Shown here: positions 7,559 through 21,402 of the stretch, piece after piece
Numbering within the stretch: position 1 is the stretch's first letter
Layout: every line of letters begins with the position of its first letter
Program-made: the position numbers and the translations under genes
Virus record (IMG/VR): IMGVR_UViG_3300028536_000126
Span: 1-45,934 of that record
Length of the DNA: 45,934 bases
Source: a virus
Reading direction: 5' to 3' (one strand)
Notes under the pieces: generated by a model
What the model was told of the DNA's origin: nothing
What the model saw: only the letters and a program-made list of their open reading frames with translations
The model's database searches: none

Positions 7559-7725
7559 GCCCACTGTGGCGTCGACCTCGAGACGTCGACAGGTTGCTGG
7601 CCGAGTCCCAGGAGCTGCGCGCGCAGCTGGTGGCCACGGTGGCGATGTTGGACCGCTTCGTCGAGGCCTTCAACGACGAGGTCGAGCACGAGCAAGAACC
7701 CGGGAGCGACAGTGACCAACAGTGA
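7555..7725 (+). CDS. Small protein, 56 residues
   Basis: ATG at 7555 overlaps the preceding TGA (ATGA), and the reading frame overlaps the next GTG start. The product begins MSPLWRRPRDVDRLLAESQE and ends with an acidic tail (EVEHEQEPGSDSDQQ). It looks like one amphipathic helix with an acidic end. Tight coupling on both sides and GC-rich third codon positions support it as a real gene; function unknown. Confidence 0.6.
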   Translation: MSPLWRRPRDVDRLLAESQELRAQLVATVAMLDRFVEAFNDEVEHEQEPGSDSDQQ

Positions 7726-8149
7726 GGACCGCGAGCCGAGCTCCTCGCTGGGGGCGACCGGGCGAGCCCTGAGCGCCGCGGTGAACGGGCTGACCAAGGC
7801 CGTGGACAACCTGATCGAGCGGGCGACGAAGTCCGAGAAGCGGACCCGGGGTATCGCCGTGGCGGTCATCCTGGATCTGCTGTTCACCGCCGCGTTCGCG
7901 CTGCTGTACTACAACCAGCACCGCACTGAGGTGGAGCTGACCGACACCCGATCGCAGGTGCTGTGCCCGCTCTACAGCGTGTTCCTGGGCTCCTACAACC
8001 CGAACACCCGCGCGCCAGGGGTGGACCGGCAGACCTACGAGCAGATCTTCAGCCAGTTCCGGGACAGCTACAACCACCTGCAGTGCACCACCCCGCTGGT
8101 GCCCAAGCCGACCACCCCCGCGCCCACGCCCACACCGACGCCGCGCTGA
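7712..8149 (+). CDS. Single-pass membrane protein with Pro/Thr-rich tail
   Basis: 145 residues from GTG at 7712. A charged N-terminal helix of about 45 residues precedes one membrane segment (GIAVAVILDLLFTAAFALLYY, residues about 50-69), then an outside domain with two Cys (LCPLYSVFL and LQCTTPLV) and a Pro/Thr-rich end. The topology suggests a type II membrane protein with its C-terminus outside. It sits in a run of small membrane-protein genes. Function unknown. Confidence 0.65.
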   Translation: MTNSEDREPSSSLGATGRALSAAVNGLTKAVDNLIERATKSEKRTRGIAVAVILDLLFTAAFALLYYNQHRTEVELTDTRSQVLCPLYSVFLGSYNPNTRAPGVDRQTYEQIFSQFRDSYNHLQCTTPLVPKPTTPAPTPTPTPR

Positions 8150-8967
8150 TGGGTGACCACCGGAGCGAGCCGGCGGTCACCCGGAGACGGTGGTGGCGCC
8201 GCCCCCCGAACCTGGGCGCCTTCTTAGTGGCGGCGGCGTTGGCGGTCGGCGGCATCGGCTGGATCGCGTTCAACGAGTCGCACCGCCAGGTGGTGGCGGT
8301 GCAAGGCGCGGCCACCCAGGCCGGCACCGAGGCGGATCGCACTCTCGAGTTGTGCGCCGGGCACGACGAAGTGGCCGCGAAACTTCTGGCGAACGGGTCC
8401 TGCGATCTGGCGCAGAGCGTGAAGCAGAACCCGATCACGGCGCCGGTCGGGCTGACCCGCGAGCAGGTCCAGGCGATGATCGACGCGGCACTGGCGCGCC
8501 GACAGCTGCAGGGCCCACCCGGACCTCCCGGGCCCGCTGGCCCGCCCGGCCCGATCGGGGGCGCCGGGCCGCCCGGTCGGGAAGGGCAGGTCGGCCTACC
8601 CGGACGTGCCGGCGAGATCGGCCTACCGGGGCGGCAGGGTGCGGCGGGTGACTACCGGGGCCGGGGCTACCCGTACTCCGGACGGGGGAATCCGGGCACG
8701 GGTGGGCGACCCAACCCGTATCCCGGCGGCGGGAGTGGCGGTTATCCCGGTCAAGGCGGCCAGCCGCCGCCCACCACAACACCGCCCACCACGACACAAC
8801 CACCGCCCACGCAGGAACAACCGCCGCCCACCGAGCAGCAGCAGCCGCCCACACAGCAGCAACAACCGCCGCAGCAGCCACCGGAGCAGATGCAGCAGCC
8901 CCAACCAATGCAGCAGCCCGACCGCGGCCTTGTGGGCGATCTCACCCATGATCTTCTCGGCAGTTAG
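8149..8967 (+). CDS. Membrane-anchored collagen-like protein
   Basis: 272 residues from ATG at 8149 (overlapping the preceding TGA). Residues 1-22 are basic, one membrane segment follows (LGAFLVAAALAVGGIGWIAF), then a soluble region with two Cys. From about residue 120 there are uninterrupted Gly-X-Y triplets (GPPGPPGPAGPPGPIGGAGP), the signature of a collagen-like triple helix. Residues about 160-200 are Gly/Tyr/Pro-rich, and the end is Pro/Gln/Thr-rich low complexity. Collagen-like triplets are common in phage tail fibres; a membrane anchor is less usual. It lies two genes before a sortase, but no LPXTG motif is visible. Confidence 0.75.
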   Translation: MGDHRSEPAVTRRRWWRRPPNLGAFLVAAALAVGGIGWIAFNESHRQVVAVQGAATQAGTEADRTLELCAGHDEVAAKLLANGSCDLAQSVKQNPITAPVGLTREQVQAMIDAALARRQLQGPPGPPGPAGPPGPIGGAGPPGREGQVGLPGRAGEIGLPGRQGAAGDYRGRGYPYSGRGNPGTGGRPNPYPGGGSGGYPGQGGQPPPTTTPPTTTQPPPTQEQPPPTEQQQPPTQQQQPPQQPPEQMQQPQPMQQPDRGLVGDLTHDLLGS

Positions 8968-9011
8968 ACGCAACCGAATGCGTGCTCGAACGTCCACAAG
9001 GAGCACGACGA

Positions 9012-9056
9012 ATGTCCAAACCGGACACAACCGGAAGGTTCGATCATGCTTCGTAA
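9012..9056 (+). other. Possible 14-residue leader peptide
   Basis: ATG at 9012 is preceded by AAGGAG at 8998-9003, and the short frame ends in TAA at 9054-9056, ten bases inside the next gene. It might couple translation of the secreted protein that starts at 9046. Short frames with good ribosome sites also occur by chance, so this is only a candidate. Confidence 0.25.
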
Positions 9057-9531
9057 GACTCTGACCGTGCTGGCCGCCTCGGCCGTTATCGCGGGGGGGA
9101 CGGCGGGCGTGGCTTACGCGGACACGCCCGTGAAGTCCTCCACCAGCTGTGTGGTCTCCACCGGCGGGGTGCTCGGCACCATCACCGGCGTGCTGGGCGG
9201 CGGCGGCTCGTGTCTGCTCCCCGGCGGTACCGACACCGATGGCGACAACGACCATCACCGTGGCGGCCACTTCCCCGGCGGCGGCTTCTACGGCGGCGGC
9301 CTCTACGGCTCCTACTGGCAGCGCGGCGGGGTCATCCTGCCCTACAGCCAGGTGGCCAGCTCCTGTGGCTGCTCCAGCCCGGCAAGCTACGGATACACCC
9401 TGGTCGAGCAGCCGCAGCAGGTGCAGGTGGTCCCGGTGGGTGTCGCGGCCGGTGACGGCTCTTGCGCGCTGAACCAGGTCAACTGGGGCGACCCCCGGTT
9501 CCGTGGCGGCGTGCGGTACTTCCGCCGCTGA
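9046..9531 (+). CDS. Secreted Gly-rich protein
   Basis: 161 residues. The N-terminus is a clear signal peptide (MLRKTLTVLAASAVIAGGTA, cleavage probably after AYA at about residue 25). The mature part has a Cys-containing region, an Asp/His stretch (DTDGDNDHHRGGH), a Gly/Tyr-rich segment and a CGC motif, and ends in RRGVRY-like basic residues (FRGGVRYFRR). GGAAGG at 9031-9036 gives the ribosome site. An exported phage product next to a collagen-like membrane protein and a sortase suggests action at the host surface. Family not recognised. Confidence 0.7.
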   Translation: MLRKTLTVLAASAVIAGGTAGVAYADTPVKSSTSCVVSTGGVLGTITGVLGGGGSCLLPGGTDTDGDNDHHRGGHFPGGGFYGGGLYGSYWQRGGVILPYSQVASSCGCSSPASYGYTLVEQPQQVQVVPVGVAAGDGSCALNQVNWGDPRFRGGVRYFRR

Positions 9532-9537
9532 CGGCTG

Positions 9538-9900
9538 ATGCCGCCCATCGCAGTCAGGTGCGTGGACGGCGGTGTGACCGTGGAGGTCGGCGCGGATGGG
9601 CTCACCCGGCTCATCGTGTTCGGCCTCCACGGGTCGGTAAGCGAAGTTTCGTGCTCTCCCGAACAGGTGCAGGAGCTGCTGTGCGCGCTGATCGCTACCC
9701 GTCGGGACGCTTCCCCTGGTGGCTGGTCGCGGTCTGCGCCCTCATCCTCGGCACCGGCTACGCCGTCGGGCACCACGCCGGGCCGCCGCCAGCCCCGGCC
9801 TACTCCGCCCCCGAGCTTTACTCCCCCGGAGTCGTCGGACCACTGGCACCTCCGCCCAACCCACCACACCGGGCTGAGCAGCCCGTGGGGCCAGTACTGA
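9538..9900 (+). CDS. Possible small gene overlapping the sortase start
   Basis: 120 codons from ATG at 9538. The first 55 residues look like a real small domain (VTVEVGADGLTRLIVFG, then SCSPEQVQELLCALIATRR). From 9681 onward the frame overlaps the sortase gene by 220 bases and becomes Ser/Pro-rich, with third-position usage that favours the sortase frame. Either the gene is real with a long overlap, or a shorter gene has lost its stop. The protein is not recognised. Confidence 0.45.
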   Translation: MPPIAVRCVDGGVTVEVGADGLTRLIVFGLHGSVSEVSCSPEQVQELLCALIATRRDASPGGWSRSAPSSSAPATPSGTTPGRRQPRPTPPPSFTPPESSDHWHLRPTHHTGLSSPWGQY

Positions 9901-10469
9901 CCTCGGTCCCGGCGCATGTACCGGCGGTCGACTCCAGCCCCCTGGCGACCGTCTCAGCCCCGGCTCCGGCGTATCCGAGCGTGACCGGGCTGACCATTCC
10001 CGCGCTGGGCATCAACACCGGCCTGGTGATCAAGGTGGGGGTGCAGCCGGACGGCTCGATGGAAACCCCGCCCCTCTCCCGGGTCCAGGAGCTGGGCTGG
10101 TACTGCCCGAACCTGCACACCGACGCGCCCGGTTGCGGCGCCCCGGTGCCCGGCGACCCGGGCCCGGCGACCCTGGTCGCGCACGTGGACGGCCAAGGCA
10201 AGCTGGGCCTGTTCGCCAAGCTGTTCCAGCTCAAGACCGGCGATCAGGTCACCGTGCACCGTTCCGATCACCAGGTGGCCATCTTCACCGTCACCGACCT
10301 GGCCATGGCCGACAAGGCCAGCTTCCCCGGCCAGCAGATCTTCGGCGACACCGCCGACCCCGAACTCCGGTTGATCACCTGCGGTGGCCCGTTCGACCCG
10401 GCCGCGCGCAGCTACACCCAGAACGTGGTGGTCTCCGCCCGACTCACCTCATTGCGTGCCGCCGGCTAG
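9681..10469 (+). CDS. Sortase, class E/F-like
   Basis: 262 residues from GTG at 9681, with AGGAG at 9671-9675. Sortases are membrane-bound cysteine transpeptidases that cut a sorting motif and join proteins to the cell wall or to each other. Residues about 12-30 form the membrane anchor (FPWWLVAVCALILGTGYAV), then a Pro-rich linker, then the sortase domain from about residue 110 (GLTIPALGINTGLVIKVG). The triad is visible: His168 in LVAHVDG, Cys234 in LRLITCGG, Arg243 in PAARSYTQNVVV. Domain length and Cys-to-Arg spacing fit the actinobacterial class E/F group. A phage-coded sortase is unusual. Upstream in-frame sequence to 9462 exists but overlaps the preceding gene and looks non-coding. Confidence 0.85.
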   Translation: MRADRYPSGRFPWWLVAVCALILGTGYAVGHHAGPPPAPAYSAPELYSPGVVGPLAPPPNPPHRAEQPVGPVLTSVPAHVPAVDSSPLATVSAPAPAYPSVTGLTIPALGINTGLVIKVGVQPDGSMETPPLSRVQELGWYCPNLHTDAPGCGAPVPGDPGPATLVAHVDGQGKLGLFAKLFQLKTGDQVTVHRSDHQVAIFTVTDLAMADKASFPGQQIFGDTADPELRLITCGGPFDPAARSYTQNVVVSARLTSLRAAG

Positions 10470-10471
10470 TC

Positions 10472-10699
10472 GTGACGCCGGGCGAACGGACCTGGTCGGG
10501 CGCCCTGCGGTTCTTATGCCTGGACATCGGGCGCGCCCTCTACCTGCAAGAAGTGCACGCCGACGACGGCTCCGGGCACTGCCGCGGCTGCCACTCGCAG
10601 ACAACGTGGAGCTGTCATCCGTGCGCCGCACGCCAGCTGGCCGACGAGGCGGTGGCGCGCCTCATTCCCCTGCAGAGAGGTAGCGATGACCGCACGTAA
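10472..10699 (+). CDS. Small Cys-rich (zinc-binding-like) protein
   Basis: 75 residues from GTG two bases after the sortase stop. The central part has CRGCH and CHPC pairs spaced 8 residues apart, a typical small zinc ribbon or knuckle, followed by an Ala/Arg-rich helix. It overlaps the next gene by 14 bases. Function unknown; DNA or protein binding is possible. Confidence 0.6.
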   Translation: MTPGERTWSGALRFLCLDIGRALYLQEVHADDGSGHCRGCHSQTTWSCHPCAARQLADEAVARLIPLQRGSDDRT

Positions 10700-11114
10700 G
10701 CCCCCCGAGGAGCCGGTGGTTGCACCGCCCACCCACCCGCTACCAACTCAGCCGGAGGCCGCCAACCCGGGCTGGTTCCCGGTGACCAGCGACGAGTTCG
10801 AACGCCGCATGGCCGGGGTCGATCAGGCCCTCCACATCATCGGCCGCCACATCCGGGCGGTCGAGCAGATCGTTACCCAGTTAGGAGAGACCATCGTGTC
10901 TTCCGCACAGGACGTCATCAACGCTGTCGCCGCCGAGCTCCAGCAGGAGGACTCGGACCTGAACGCCGCGGTCGCCGCCATCCAGGCGTGGATTGCCGCG
11001 CAGCCGGCCAGCGTGGATGTCAGCGCCCTGCAGCCGATCGCGGACCAGCTCAAGGCCACGGTGGCCGCGACCGCCGCGCTGGTACCGCCCGTTACGCCCC
11101 CGGCCGGGGGCTGA
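10686..11114 (+). CDS. Helical virion-type protein with possible internal start
   Basis: 142 residues. Residues 1-40 are Pro-rich; the remainder is Ala/Gln/Val-rich helix (DLNAAVAAIQAWIAAQ). An internal GTG at 10896 is preceded by AGGAGA at 10883-10888 with ideal spacing. The resulting 72-residue product (VSSAQDVINAV, ending ALVPPVTPPAGG) resembles small stand-alone helical proteins seen in actinophage tail/lysis regions. The gene may therefore give a long and a short form. Confidence 0.65.
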   Translation: MTARKPPEEPVVAPPTHPLPTQPEAANPGWFPVTSDEFERRMAGVDQALHIIGRHIRAVEQIVTQLGETIVSSAQDVINAVAAELQQEDSDLNAAVAAIQAWIAAQPASVDVSALQPIADQLKATVAATAALVPPVTPPAGG

Positions 11115-11201: not shown

Positions 11202-12173
11202 ATGGGCAGATGGGATTGGACCGGCGAGCGCTGGGAGCACAGCGACGCACCCGATGATCCGGTGACCGACAAGCTGCCGACGTTCCCGAAGATCACCACC
11301 GTGGAGCAGGCCCAGGCGGTCGCCGACGCGCTGCTGGAGAAGGTGCGCGGCGCCGCCTCGGAGGTGACGCTGACCCGCTCGGTGATCGACATTCTTACCA
11401 CCAACGGCGTTATCCGGGCACCGGAGGTGGTGGAGCTGGCCGGCGCCGCTGGGCTCGACCTGGCGGCGGCGGCCACGCTCCTGGAGAAGGAATCCGGCGG
11501 TGGCCTGAACCTGTGGGGCCATGATCCGGTGAACACCGGCGGCATCTACACCAAGGGCGGCCAGGTCACCCAGGGCGCCTACATGGCCTACAAGACGCAG
11601 CGCTCCCGACTGGGCTGCCAGGGGGTCGGACCGTGCCAGCTGACCTACGGGCCGCTGCAGGACCAGGCCGACGCGGCCGGTGGCTGTTGGGACTGGCGCA
11701 CCAACGTCAAGATCGGGTTCCGGCTGCTGGCCAACTACGCCAACGGCGCGGATCTGCGGACCGCGTTCCGCCGCTACAACGGCAGCGGGCCGGCCGCCGA
11801 GAACTACGCCAACGACGCGATGGGCCGCTACACCGCGTGGCGGGCCCGGCTCAACGGAGCGGAGACAGAAGACATGGCCTCGGTTCCGCAGGACCAGTGG
11901 AACGCGGTCTACCAGCAGCTGTGCGGGGTATTCGCCGCATGGGGTGGCGGGCTGACCGACGACAAGGGCACACCGTATGACCTGCTGCAATTTATGCTGC
12001 GGGCGAACGTGCAGCTGCATCAGCTCACCCTGCAACTCGATGCGCTGGAAAACCGGCTGAATTCGCTGCCGCTCGGCGCGCCCACTGGTAATGCGCTCAC
12101 CAGCGAGGACGATGTGAATCGCATCGTGGCCGGGGTATTGGACAAGCTCAGTAGCAGCATGAAGGGAAAGTGA
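11202..12173 (+). CDS. Endolysin, lysozyme/transglycosylase-like
   Basis: 323 residues; AAGG at 11189-11192 precedes ATG. It should cut the glycan strands of peptidoglycan at lysis. Residues about 85-225 form a lysozyme-like fold: LEKESGGGLNLWGHDP with the likely catalytic Glu97, GCQGVGPCQLTYGPLQDQ, and RRYNGSGPAAENYANDAM, all characteristic of actinophage lysins of the goose-type/transglycosylase kind. The C-terminal about 90 residues are helical and carry no recognisable wall-binding domain. There is no signal peptide, so release should depend on the holin encoded downstream. Confidence 0.85.
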   Translation: MGRWDWTGERWEHSDAPDDPVTDKLPTFPKITTVEQAQAVADALLEKVRGAASEVTLTRSVIDILTTNGVIRAPEVVELAGAAGLDLAAAATLLEKESGGGLNLWGHDPVNTGGIYTKGGQVTQGAYMAYKTQRSRLGCQGVGPCQLTYGPLQDQADAAGGCWDWRTNVKIGFRLLANYANGADLRTAFRRYNGSGPAAENYANDAMGRYTAWRARLNGAETEDMASVPQDQWNAVYQQLCGVFAAWGGGLTDDKGTPYDLLQFMLRANVQLHQLTLQLDALENRLNSLPLGAPTGNALTSEDDVNRIVAGVLDKLSSSMKGK

Positions 12174-12826
12174 TGCGCGCACTGCTGGTGGCGCTGTCGC
12201 TGACCCTGCTGGCCGCGTGTGCCCCGCTGTACGTTTCCCCGGCGCCCGCTCCCTCACCGGCGCCCGCTCCCTCACCCGCCGCGACCAACGCCGGGATGAC
12301 GCCCCCGGCGGACCTGGCCGCGCCCCCGGTGCAGATCCTGCCGGCCAGCTCGCACGTGTCCGGCCTGCCGTACTCGGCGCACTGCGTGGCCCCGGTGGTG
12401 GCCGGTGGCACCCTGCCGGACCACACCTGCACCCCGGGCGCCGCGTCGTCGGCCGTCACCCAGGCCAACATCCACACCACCATCTGCGTGTCCGGCTATA
12501 CCGCGAAGATCCGCCCGTCGGCGTCCGAGACCGGCGCGGTGAAGAAGGCCGCGATGAAGGCGTACGGCGAGGCCTCCTCGGCCAGCACCGACACCGAGCT
12601 CGACCACTTGGTGCCACTGGAGCTCGGTGGCTCCAACGACGTGTCCAACCTCTGGCCGGAGCCCTCGGACGAGCCCGGCCAGGGCTTCCGCAACACCAAG
12701 GACACCGTGGAGAACGACCTGCGTTCGGCGCTGTGCCACGCCGGTTCCACGCTGCGCCTGACCGATCTGCAGTCCTGGATTGCCGCCGACTGGACGACCG
12801 CCGAGCACAAGGCCGGCCTCAACTAG
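12173..12826 (+). CDS. Exported lipoprotein with HNH-like nuclease domain
   Basis: 217 residues from ATG at 12173, which overlaps the endolysin stop. The N-terminus is a lipoprotein signal with lipobox LLAAC (Cys at residue 16), followed by a Pro/Ala repeat linker (PAPSPAPAPSPA). The C-terminal part contains ELDHLVPLELGGSNDVSNLW and KDTVENDLRSALC, the pattern of an HNH-type nuclease family found in secreted bacterial proteins. A nuclease tethered outside the membrane could degrade incoming DNA (superinfection exclusion) or host DNA at lysis; this is inference. Four Cys in the mature region may form disulfides. Confidence 0.75.
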   Translation: MRALLVALSLTLLAACAPLYVSPAPAPSPAPAPSPAATNAGMTPPADLAAPPVQILPASSHVSGLPYSAHCVAPVVAGGTLPDHTCTPGAASSAVTQANIHTTICVSGYTAKIRPSASETGAVKKAAMKAYGEASSASTDTELDHLVPLELGGSNDVSNLWPEPSDEPGQGFRNTKDTVENDLRSALCHAGSTLRLTDLQSWIAADWTTAEHKAGLN

Positions 12827-12900: not shown

Positions 12901-13221
12901 GTGTTCTCTGCCGCCTTCTGGGCGCAGGCCATCGAGCGCGCGCTGAAGACCGCCGCGCAGGCCCTGCTGATCGTCTGGGGCGCCTCCCAGGTCAACGTGC
13001 TGTCCGTGGCCAGCTGGACCACCGCGCTGTCGGTGGTCCTCTCGGCCGGTGTGGTGTCGCTGGTGACATCGCTGGGCAGCCTGCCGTTCGGGCCCACCGC
13101 GTCGCCGTCTCTGGTCGAGCCGCTGCCGCCGCTGCCCGTTCCTCCTGTCCCGGCCGCGCCGGTCGCGGCGCCGCCGAAGACCCGGTCCACGCCGGCCCGC
13201 GGTGTCCACGAGAAGGAGTGA
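12901..13221 (+). CDS. Holin, phage r1t-like
   Basis: 106 residues from GTG at 12901. The protein forms membrane lesions that release the endolysin. Two hydrophobic segments are visible (ALKTAAQALLIVWGASQVNV and TALSVVLSAGVVSLVTSLGS), and the start (FWAQAIERALKTAAQALL) plus the end of the second segment (TSPSL-like ASPSL) match the pattern of r1t-type holins common in actinophages. A Pro-rich, then charged C-terminal tail follows. It sits just after the endolysin and before two more small membrane proteins. Confidence 0.8.
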   Translation: MFSAAFWAQAIERALKTAAQALLIVWGASQVNVLSVASWTTALSVVLSAGVVSLVTSLGSLPFGPTASPSLVEPLPPLPVPPVPAAPVAAPPKTRSTPARGVHEKE

Positions 13222-18997: not shown

Positions 18998-19300
18998 ATG
19001 ACTATTGGGACGTTCCTGCCCACCGACACGGTGGGCTCCTACGCCACCTTCGTGAAGTTCTCCGGCACGGTGTCCACCCTGGCCACCGAGCTGGCGACCG
19101 CGGCGCCGGGCAAGGTGCTGCAGGTGGTGGCCGACAGCAACGTGTCCGGCCAGGCCTTGGTCATCGTGTCCGAGTCGACGATCATCCCGGTGCAGCCGAA
19201 TCAGTGGGTGGGGTTTGTGGACAACTCCTGGCAGGTATATCCGGACGCGGAGATGGCCGGCACCTTCAACACCCTGTGGGCGCCGTTCACCCCAGCCTGA
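18998..19300 (+). CDS. Small virion-type protein, second of a tandem pair
   Basis: 100 residues from ATG at 18998, with AAGGAG at 18985-18990. The segment TFVKFSGTVSTLATELATA lines up with NFVQFSGTVSAFGTALGTA of the preceding gene, and WQVYPDAEMAGTFNTLW with WQQYPAAKMAGGANSLF. It is the last gene of the rightward structural block. Confidence 0.6.
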   Translation: MTIGTFLPTDTVGSYATFVKFSGTVSTLATELATAAPGKVLQVVADSNVSGQALVIVSESTIIPVQPNQWVGFVDNSWQVYPDAEMAGTFNTLWAPFTPA

Positions 19301-19356
19301 GACCTGCTCCCCAGGTCGCTCCCCGCGTTCGCCGGTTTGAGGGCCCGGCGAACAAC

Positions 19357-19400
19357 AGCCCCGCCCCGCTCTCCCTTCGGGTTGAGAGCGGGGCGGGGCT
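19357..19400. terminator. Strong stem-loop between convergent gene blocks
   Basis: A perfect 17-bp inverted repeat (AGCCCCGCCCCGCTCTC and its complement) closes a 10-base loop and is followed by GCTTTCT. It lies 57 bases after the last rightward gene and should stop rightward transcription; it could also act on leftward transcripts. The rest of the 19301-19543 gap holds only a short hairpin at 19442-19459 and no convincing gene. Confidence 0.8.
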
Positions 19401-19543
19401 GCTTTCTGTGCTGGTGAGACCATTCGCCTAGGTACGACCTACCCGGTGACCAAGCCGGGCGGTACCGCAAGTGCGGCCGGAGCAGGATCTCCAGTGAGCT
19501 ACGTGTCCGGCATCTGTCCGTGCCCCTCGGGGGTCAGCCCTAC

Positions 19544-19762
19544 TCACACGGAATTCTTGTGCACCCCGTCGGCGCCGTCGGGGATCTTGGTCGGCGTCCG
19601 GGCCCACTCGCGGGCCGCCTCGTAGGCGGCTTCGCTCGCCTCGTGGTTACGTCCGTCGTCGCAGGTGTAGCCGTCCAGCCCTTCGCCGGTCTCCCAGTCC
19701 CCATCCAGTCCCGGGCCTACCTGGCGCCCGCACTTGAGGCAGGGCCACGTCGGCCAGCTCAT
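19544..19762 (-). CDS. Small zinc-finger-like protein after the Ro60 gene
   Basis: 72 residues; ATG at 19762 overlaps the TGA of the TROVE gene (ATGA), so translation is coupled. The head WPCLKCGRQVG with a later YTCDDGRNH suggests a small metal site; the rest is acidic helix (EASEAAYEAAREWART). It is the last leftward gene. Whether it works with Ro60 is unknown, but the coupling makes it a candidate partner. Confidence 0.6.
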   Translation of the reverse strand: MSWPTWPCLKCGRQVGPGLDGDWETGEGLDGYTCDDGRNHEASEAAYEAAREWARTPTKIPDGADGVHKNSV

Positions 19763-21402
19763 GACGTGCTCACCTCCCACGGCCACCGGCCGTTGGTGCC
19801 GACCGACTCCAGCATCGGGATCATCTTGAACCCCTGATCCGTCAGGCCGCCGAAGGTGTGCCGATTGGACGAACCCGACGCGGCGTGGCCACGCTCGTAG
19901 CCGGCCAGGTTCCAGGTGTAGATGGGCGTGGCCGGGATCTGCGCGCCCACCTCACCCTGTCCACCCCAGGCCTGCTCGTCGGTCAGGATGACCACCCGGT
20001 CGTGCCCGCTGAAGTGCGCGCGCAGCGCGAGCTCGGTCTGCGTGCCACCGCCCAGGAAGAACCCGTCCCGGTCCCAGCGCGCCACCATCGCCAGCAGCGA
20101 CTCACCGGCCCGCAGCGGGTACACCTTGGATGCGCCGCCCACCGGGTCGCTGTAGTAGTGCTGGCTGGAGGAGAACGACACCAGGTCCACGCGGTGGCAG
20201 CGGGTGGCCAGGGCGCAGCCGAACAGCGCCGCCGCGTCCCAGCGCATCAGGCCCGAGCGGTCCGACATCGGCGAGTGCATCGAGCTCGAGGTGTCCACCA
20301 GGATCAGGGTGCGGCCGGTGACCGTCGGGATGTTGCGCAAAGCCAGGTTCACCGCCTGATCCAGCGGCCACTTCCACCGGTCCGACGGCGCGTTGCGGTA
20401 GGCGGACAGGAACCGCATCGGCAGCTGCCGGGACCGCGCCACCTCCTCCGGGCTGGACAGCTTCGCCGCCACCTTCTGCGCCACCTGATCGGACACCCCG
20501 GCCTGATCGAAATTCCTCAAGTTCCTGAGCAAGGCCATGTAGCCCATGTTCGGGATGATCGCCTCCCAGGCCTGGCGGTCCATCGGGCCCTGTAGCCAGC
20601 CCGCCAGCGCCTCCCAGGTCATCCCGGCGTCCTTCAGGCGCACCGGGTCCAGGGCGGCCCGGCGCTCGTTCACCGGCAGCGCCATCAGGGCCTTGCGCCG
20701 GGTCAGGGTCTGCAGGCCCTCCGGGATCTGGGCGTCCGGCTCGTACTTGGCCTTGATGATGTGCCCGAACAGGTCGTTCTGCCAGCCGGCGCGGATGCGC
20801 TGATTCGACCGCTTGGCGTCGCCCGGGTGGGTCAGGTTCAGCAGCCGGTCGAAGGTGTAGCCGCCGGACTCGCCGTACTTGAGGTAGTTCATCTCCGAGC
20901 CCAGCCGGATCATGGCGTCGGCCACGCCGCGCTTGACCGGCCACGGGATGGACTTGCCGTACTGGGTGGTCCAGTAGGCGATCATCTCGCCCGGCTCGTC
21001 GGCCCGCAGGATCACCGAGTCGACCACCTTGCGCCCGGTCGGCGCGCCCAGCACGGCCGAGGTGCGGGCGATGGCCGTCTTCACGTACTCGGCCGCGCCC
21101 ACGATGGCCGCGCTGCGCATGTTCGCCTCGGTGCGCAGCCAGCGCAGGAACGCGGCCACCCAGGCGGGGTCCTCGGCGGTCACCTGGCGGATCAGGTGGA
21201 CGTAGCGCAGGTCGCCCTTCTTGGCGTCCTCGTAGAACGAACCCTCCCCGCTGAACCGCGAGACCGCGTAGAGGAAGAGCTCGGAGCGTCCATCCCGGGC
21301 GAAGCCGGGGCCACCCTCGAAGGTCGTGCCGGAGGGGGTGCGCTCGGAGGCGACAGGGGAGTAGACCTGCGGCTTGGCGCTGGTCGTGTTAAAGCGGGCC
21401 AT
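19759..21402 (-). CDS. TROVE-domain RNA-binding protein (Ro60/Rsr-like)
   Basis: 547 residues. ATG at 21402 has AAAGGAGG eight bases upstream. Ro60 proteins are ring-shaped: a TROVE HEAT-repeat ring binds Y RNA outside and misfolded RNA ends in the hole. The first about 360 residues show the TROVE pattern (DGRSELFLYAVSRFSGEGSF, LRWLRTEANMRSAAIVGAAE, SGGYTFDRLLNLTHP). A vWA domain fills residues about 366-530 with MIDAS residues Asp370-Thr-Ser-Ser-Ser, Thr at about 454 in GGGTQT and Asp475 in LTDEQ. Length equals cellular Ro60. An array of six Y-RNA-like units ends 21 bases upstream on the same strand, strongly supporting a Ro60/Y-RNA pair. Confidence 0.92.
   Translation of the reverse strand: MARFNTTSAKPQVYSPVASERTPSGTTFEGGPGFARDGRSELFLYAVSRFSGEGSFYEDAKKGDLRYVHLIRQVTAEDPAWVAAFLRWLRTEANMRSAAIVGAAEYVKTAIARTSAVLGAPTGRKVVDSVILRADEPGEMIAYWTTQYGKSIPWPVKRGVADAMIRLGSEMNYLKYGESGGYTFDRLLNLTHPGDAKRSNQRIRAGWQNDLFGHIIKAKYEPDAQIPEGLQTLTRRKALMALPVNERRAALDPVRLKDAGMTWEALAGWLQGPMDRQAWEAIIPNMGYMALLRNLRNFDQAGVSDQVAQKVAAKLSSPEEVARSRQLPMRFLSAYRNAPSDRWKWPLDQAVNLALRNIPTVTGRTLILVDTSSSMHSPMSDRSGLMRWDAAALFGCALATRCHRVDLVSFSSSQHYYSDPVGGASKVYPLRAGESLLAMVARWDRDGFFLGGGTQTELALRAHFSGHDRVVILTDEQAWGGQGEVGAQIPATPIYTWNLAGYERGHAASGSSNRHTFGGLTDQGFKMIPMLESVGTNGRWPWEVSTS

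Follow-up and report, generated by a model that had tools for sequence, protein, structure and literature searches.

The 45,934-base window analysed here is the full IMG/VR virus record IMGVR_UViG_3300028536_000126, and it carries a gene for a class F-like sortase downstream of a gene for a secreted Gly-rich protein, which we consider its probable substrate. Tape measure and tail genes occupy the left of the window, upstream of this cassette, and a holin gene lies downstream, so that the record is that of a tailed phage and the cassette lies between tail and lysis genes. An initial annotation had proposed a rare phage sortase here, next to a collagen-like membrane protein and a secreted protein. 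The cassette genes were confirmed at the same coordinates, all on the + strand, which holds every gene called up to 18,986. The features of the cassette are as follows; further loci used for comparison (virus records, prophage regions and the bacterial loci L024-L103) are cited by L-labels.

8149-8967, + strand: TM-B, a membrane protein whose single hydrophobic segment is N-terminal, with Gly-X-Y repeats and a tail rich in Pro and Gln
8512-8649, + strand: Gly-X-Y (collagen-like) repeat of about 46 residues inside TM-B (PF01391)
9046-9531, + strand: secreted Gly-rich protein with ATG start, the proposed sortase substrate
9046-9120, + strand: signal peptide MLRKTLTVLAASAVIAGGTAGVAYA of the secreted protein, ending AYA/DT, read from the sequence by eye
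9418-9453, + strand: candidate sorting-signal variant QVQVVPVGVAAG
9681-10469, + strand: class F-like sortase, with a membrane segment at its N-terminus and a Pro-rich linker
10182-10184, + strand: active-site His codon
10380-10382, + strand: active-site Cys codon (LITCGG)
10422-10424, + strand: Asn codon, aligned with the catalytic Arg position in SrtA

The sortase and its relatives

The window encodes a genuine sortase, as the initial annotation had supposed, and the enzyme is class F-like. It matched the Sortase family PF04203 with 56.3 bits (cut-off 26.6) and the NCBIfam model class_F_sortase (NF033748) with 147.2 bits and E 3e-43, yet this is under the curated cut-off of 166, as is the score of every phage copy that was scored; models of other sortase classes scored far lower than the class F model. 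The AlphaFold model of the protein (predicted local distance difference test, pLDDT, 94.5) has the sortase beta-barrel fold, and its best PDB matches were sortases A and E (E about 1e-9, TM score 0.61-0.74). The listed open reading frame (ORF), 9462-10469, begins too early, and the likely start is the GTG at 9681 behind an AGGAG. Another ORF (9538-9900, 120 amino acids) overlaps this start in a different frame; its first about 55 residues are protein-like and it may be a gene.

The sortase had also been credited with a complete His-Cys-Arg triad, which stands only in part. In an alignment of 47 phage and bacterial homologues, including six phage copies, the His and the Cys are invariant, but at the position nine residues after the Cys (codon 10407, within RSY) only 12 of the 47 have Arg, among them three of the six phage copies. 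The place aligned with the catalytic Arg of SrtA, which we take to lie five residues ahead of the Ala at the end of the last strand, is occupied by Asn in 43 of the 47 and by Gln in three phages. It has been stated that all sortases carry His-Cys-Arg (PMC13257024), a rule that, judged by this alignment, may not fit the present group.

Class F-like sortases were found in 11 further IMG/VR records (L002, L006, L022, L104, L109, L178, L180, L181, L182, L186 and L187), which like the window represent uncultivated viruses whose hosts are presumably soil actinobacteria. Another lies in L176, a bacterial contig from a Pseudonocardiaceae sample, where a prophage fragment holds the sortase together with a relative of the window lysin-like gene and a holin. 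Alignment-based scans of viral contigs recovered sortase relatives, and a scan of viral contigs with the single sortase sequence gave none. The initial annotation called such a sortase rare in a phage. In tblastn searches of 50,697 phage genomes with the window, L002 or Amycolatopsis query no isolated phage showed a relative, a result which does not exclude phage sortases of other classes, and among the BFVD viral structure models there was no match at E <= 0.001.

In all 13 phage loci (the window, the 11 virus records and the L176 prophage fragment) the gene for an exported protein precedes that for the sortase. Eight records (the window, L002, L006, L022, L104, L109, L178 and L182) form one supported branch (95/90). 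In a six-member tree the phage sortases of the window group again form one branch (98/98) near Pseudonocardiaceae class F sortases, and in three trees, which contained no other sortase class, the phage sortases sit near the class F members of this family. A single origin of all 13 was neither shown nor rejected (p-AU, approximately unbiased test, 0.40). The predicted sortase-substrate arrangement recurs in several actinophage lineages. The host of the window virus is probably one of the Pseudonocardiaceae (actinobacteria), because the bacterial sortases closest to that of the window come from this family and because relatives of TM-A (a membrane protein at the left border of the block, listed below) and of the lysin-like protein occur in its prophages.

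Class F sortases occur widely among actinobacteria, being present in 79 of the 100 Pseudonocardiaceae genomes of our sample, and are not known to have a role. The phage copies resemble the Actinomycetota class F sortases (NF033748; Cutibacterium acnes SrtF; Actinoplanes missouriensis SrtF1-4) in the sortase fold, the invariant His, the LITC Cys and the exported partner encoded directly upstream, and they branch near the Pseudonocardiaceae members. They differ in lying in phage genomes, in scoring under the curated cut-off, in being mostly lipoprotein-like and, in three copies, in carrying Gln rather than Asn at the Arg place.

The secreted partner and its C-terminal motif

The secreted protein matched no known family. 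By inspection, a signal peptide stands at the start of all 12 virus-record partners, and all 12 virus-record sortases have a hydrophobic N-terminus, with a lipobox Cys in ten and a plain membrane segment without lipobox in those of the window and L186. In L006 (11184), L022 (8001), L109 (1611) and L182 (19) the substrate starts share an almost identical signal peptide, MRRLLVAG.AALAVVLGLVV, followed by a highly variable region. Together with the hydrophobic N-terminus of TM-B, these signals bear out the earlier view that the cassette is aimed at the cell exterior. They also weigh on a role once suggested for it, namely that collagen-like fibres or other parts of the virion are joined by the sortase. 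The cassette does adjoin tail genes, and a collagen-like neighbour of the sortase is present in the window and in L022; but we regard this role as highly improbable, because sortase and substrate both carry export signals whereas tails assemble in the cytoplasm, and further because several relatives retain the sortase but have no Gly-X-Y part and the pair can be distant from tail genes.

Bacterial class F sortase genes are usually preceded by a gene for an exported protein. At 53 of 80 bacterial class F loci (L024-L103) the final 90 residues encoded by the upstream ORF contain the motif P-x-G-x3-[TA]-G, against 19 of the 516 other ORFs of these loci; the counts come from simple ORF calling, and many of the Streptomyces loci are close relatives, hence not independent events. 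NCBI already models this partner motif, which is known but has been little studied, as the GVDTG sorting domain (NF058571). In most bacterial partners it is followed by a hydrophobic segment and a tail rich in Arg, while some Pseudonocardiaceae partners (L028, L029 and L030) end soon after it.

The secreted protein of the window reads QVQVVPVGVAAGDGSCALNQVNW... in its C-terminal part, which is one residue shorter than P-x-G-x3-[T/A]-G and has Ala for Thr, and may be compared with QVSIVPAGAPQTGDGS of Amycolatopsis L029. We scored it with a profile for which only bacterial partners had served as training set, allowing one deletion in the variable stretch. With this rule the window partner scored 19.1 bits, that of L002 20.6 and that of L006 18.9; the window protein ranked first of the 56 window genes (runner-up 9.7 bits) and none of 5000 shuffles reached 19.1 bits. 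The strict profile, without the deletion, did not match it. Among the ORFs of four phage records the bacteria-only profile placed the partners of L002, L022 and L006 first to third (E 8e-4 to 4e-3; next 0.42).

The motif is common to phage and bacterial class F partners, and ten of the 13 phage partners carry it or a near variant. Beside a class F-like sortase and near the C-terminus, a GVDTG-type motif thus stands exactly as P-x-G-x3-TG in seven relatives (L002, L006, L022, L181, L182, L186 and L187) and as a variant in the window, L180 and L176. The phage partners stop 2-25 residues past the motif. Their C-termini, each directly followed by the stop, include VPVGPAETGGM, VPVGAVDTGLA, VPEGSASTGAI, GVDTGDGSLA, VPSGPVQTGGDSAAFVLAHNRAV and IPQGSVNTGGEGPGWFRKLLDWVTYLVS, and that of L176 is VPSKAAETGGGPA. 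They have no C-terminal membrane segment, the maximal hydropathy of the last 45 residues being at most 1.03 as against 1.69-2.16 in seven anchored bacterial partners. Phage partners and NF058571 proteins are alike in the C-terminal P-x-G-x3-[T/A]-G signal and in the gene adjoining a class F sortase; the phage partners lack its hydrophobic segment and basic tail and gave no match to that model, and the window motif is one residue shorter.

A close parallel is offered by the anchor-less Pseudonocardiaceae partners, namely the choice-of-anchor P protein of Amycolatopsis GM8 (L029) and those of Crossiella (L028) and Pseudonocardia (L030), in which the motif also stands at the extreme C-terminus without a membrane segment. 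The proteins of this group end in VPAGAPQTGDGSLATLIEK, KPVGGVETGGGGPA and YPNGGVATGGAARP before the stop, and the L029 sortase is lipoprotein-like, as are most phage copies. On the other hand, these partners are chromosomal genes without phage neighbours, and their mature domains are unrelated.

In L104, L109 and L178, whose partners lack the motif, a tail GG.D.A[FY]VLAHAR[AV] is kept at the ends of the substrate genes (4558, 2645 and 5700, respectively). This conserved tail may itself be recognised, because it was kept although the motif was lost. A scan of genome contigs and of 395 genomes of the class, run without a positive control, found no bacterial source of the Cys-containing domain of the substrate, and the AlphaFold model of the L006 substrate (pLDDT 44.8) was not interpretable.

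Proposed anchoring and its purpose

From these observations we argue that the window probably holds a phage-owned cell-wall anchoring pair, in which the class F-like sortase would link the secreted phage protein to the wall of the infected cell. The signal peptide would export the secreted Gly-rich protein, and the membrane-held sortase would recognise its C-terminal P-x-G-x(2,3)-[T/A]-G signal. The Cys at codon 10380 is predicted to attack the [T/A]-G bond, after which the substrate would be transferred to the peptidoglycan of the infected actinobacterium; sortase activity, cleavage site and wall attachment are what we infer here. The pair is probably expressed late, because the block lies between the tail genes and the holin.

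Several points weigh against anchoring. Asn or Gln stands where, by the alignment, the catalytic Arg is expected. The window motif can be matched only with a one-residue deletion and with Ala in place of Thr, under a rule that was allowed after the sequence had been seen, and three of the 13 phage partners (L104, L109 and L178) have no motif. Anchoring also leaves unexplained how a substrate without a membrane anchor is held for the sortase. Furthermore, deletion of all four class F sortases of A. missouriensis gave no phenotype (PMC13251363); the exported neighbours in that species were not analysed further, since they showed no pentapeptide motif (PMC13251363).

The missing C-terminal membrane segment also leaves retention in the envelope unassured, and the sortase could then cut without anchoring, the mature protein being released by hydrolysis or joined to another soluble amine. 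We think this improbable, since the two-residue tails (TGGM, TGLA and TGAI before the stop) leave almost nothing to release and the pairing copies a bacterial arrangement that is modelled as a sorting domain.

As to the substrate, the real genes of the window have no LPXTG- or LAXTG-type ends. The initial annotation, which had noted the lack of LPXTG, left the choice between another motif and a host protein; the first has held, in that another sorting motif is present in the secreted protein, and the second is the less likely. C. acnes SrtF recognises LPXTG (PMC13257024), a motif carried by no real window gene. The sortase might instead act mainly on host proteins and alter what the host wall displays, since several class F sortases occur in Pseudonocardiaceae hosts, together with partners that share the motif. 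But each of the 13 phage loci has an exported partner beside the sortase, ten of these partners carry the motif, and a dedicated substrate is the simpler explanation; we hold action on host proteins to be quite improbable and the secreted Gly-rich neighbour of the phage itself to be the most likely substrate.

Remodelling of the host surface, as first suggested for this cassette, remains the leading hypothesis for its role. The most likely purpose of the anchoring pair, which we put forward tentatively, would be to coat the wall and thereby keep other phages, or progeny meeting spent cells, from binding. Surface masking would fit an exported, wall-fixed protein with exported nuclease-like proteins as neighbours (12170-12826 in the window; SNase in L002). 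Llp of phage T5 and Ltp of phage TP-J34 are phage lipoproteins that serve superinfection exclusion or protection of progeny, and they offer a lead, being small exported phage proteins kept on the infected cell with the same benefit as proposed here. They are held by lipid and not linked by a sortase to peptidoglycan.

The main alternative for the purpose, itself compatible with anchoring, is that the pair serves lysis, the secreted protein being fixed late to the wall so as to weaken it or to position a lytic function there. In L181, in L176 and in the group of the window the pair stands at the lysis end, where lysin, endolysin or holin genes follow it directly. In contrast, it lies beside terminase genes in L186 and L187 (with portal genes also in L186) and among small unknown genes in L180, a 107-kb record; the substrates matched no lytic domain, and related prophages retain their lysis genes without the pair. 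A lytic purpose thus appears rather unlikely.

It is conceivable, more broadly, that these phages own a covalent cell-wall decoration, consisting of a sortase and a dedicated anchor-less substrate with a truncated signal, directed against competitors or loss of progeny and acquired repeatedly or moved between lineages. If so, it would be a way for a phage to alter the host wall, and a class F-like phage sortase with one dedicated substrate would make a compact model of class F recognition and function. Our literature searches on phage-encoded sortases gave nothing relevant, and no such wall alteration was found described.

Neighbouring genes

The remaining genes of the conserved block and those next to it are the following.

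7712-8149, + strand: TM-A, a one-helix membrane protein that bounds the block on the left; it has an LGSYNP...DR.YE region and two conserved Cys
10686-11114, + strand: small conserved protein of no assigned function downstream of the sortase, with homologues in L002, L006 and L022
11202-12173, + strand: lysin-like protein (putative lytic role), about 50% identical in L002, L006 and L022; right border of the block
12170-12826, + strand: lipoprotein-like (LLAAC) protein with a weak HNH match, a possible exported nuclease
12901-13221, + strand: holin (phrog_443, E 1.8e-18)

TM-A homologues occur in L002, L006, L022, L109 and L181, and in a Pseudonocardiaceae prophage without an adjoining sortase; in the prophages of this family relatives of TM-A, TM-B and the lysin are found mostly without a sortase. 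The anchored Gly-X-Y neighbour of the initial annotation is present as TM-B, where the repeat is plain in the sequence and PF01391 matched just under its cut-off (E 4.5e-6; 26.8 bits against 27.2), but the repeats vary among relatives. They are not a constant part of the system, because they are absent in the TM-B homologues of L006, L104, L109 and L178 and present in the related prophage region L171, which has no sortase.

HNH-like proteins sharing DHLVPLE...NLW..PSD...KD.VEN lie near the cassette in the window (12170-12826), L006 (15673-16281) and L022 (12390-13121), with a lipobox in those of the window and L006. L002 has a lipoprotein-like SNase at 19120-19752 on the - strand (PF00565, E 5.6e-15). 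Incoming DNA could be destroyed by such a nuclease if it were placed at the cell surface. A protease-like gene lies near the sortase in most relatives, and the window has none there. Proteins of L006 (13653-14579), L022 (10471-11388), L109 (3974-5038) and L002 (14628-15494) resemble papain-like proteases by eye, with no convincing Pfam match, and that of L178 (6936-8075) is a subtilase (PF00082, E 4.7e-9).

No structured RNA was detected in the window, and no integrase was found in it; the L006 record has a tyrosine integrase and the L109 record a serine recombinase. On the - strand, at 19759-21402, the window also encodes a TROVE/Ro-like RNA-binding protein (PF05731, E 1.3e-15; phrog_850).

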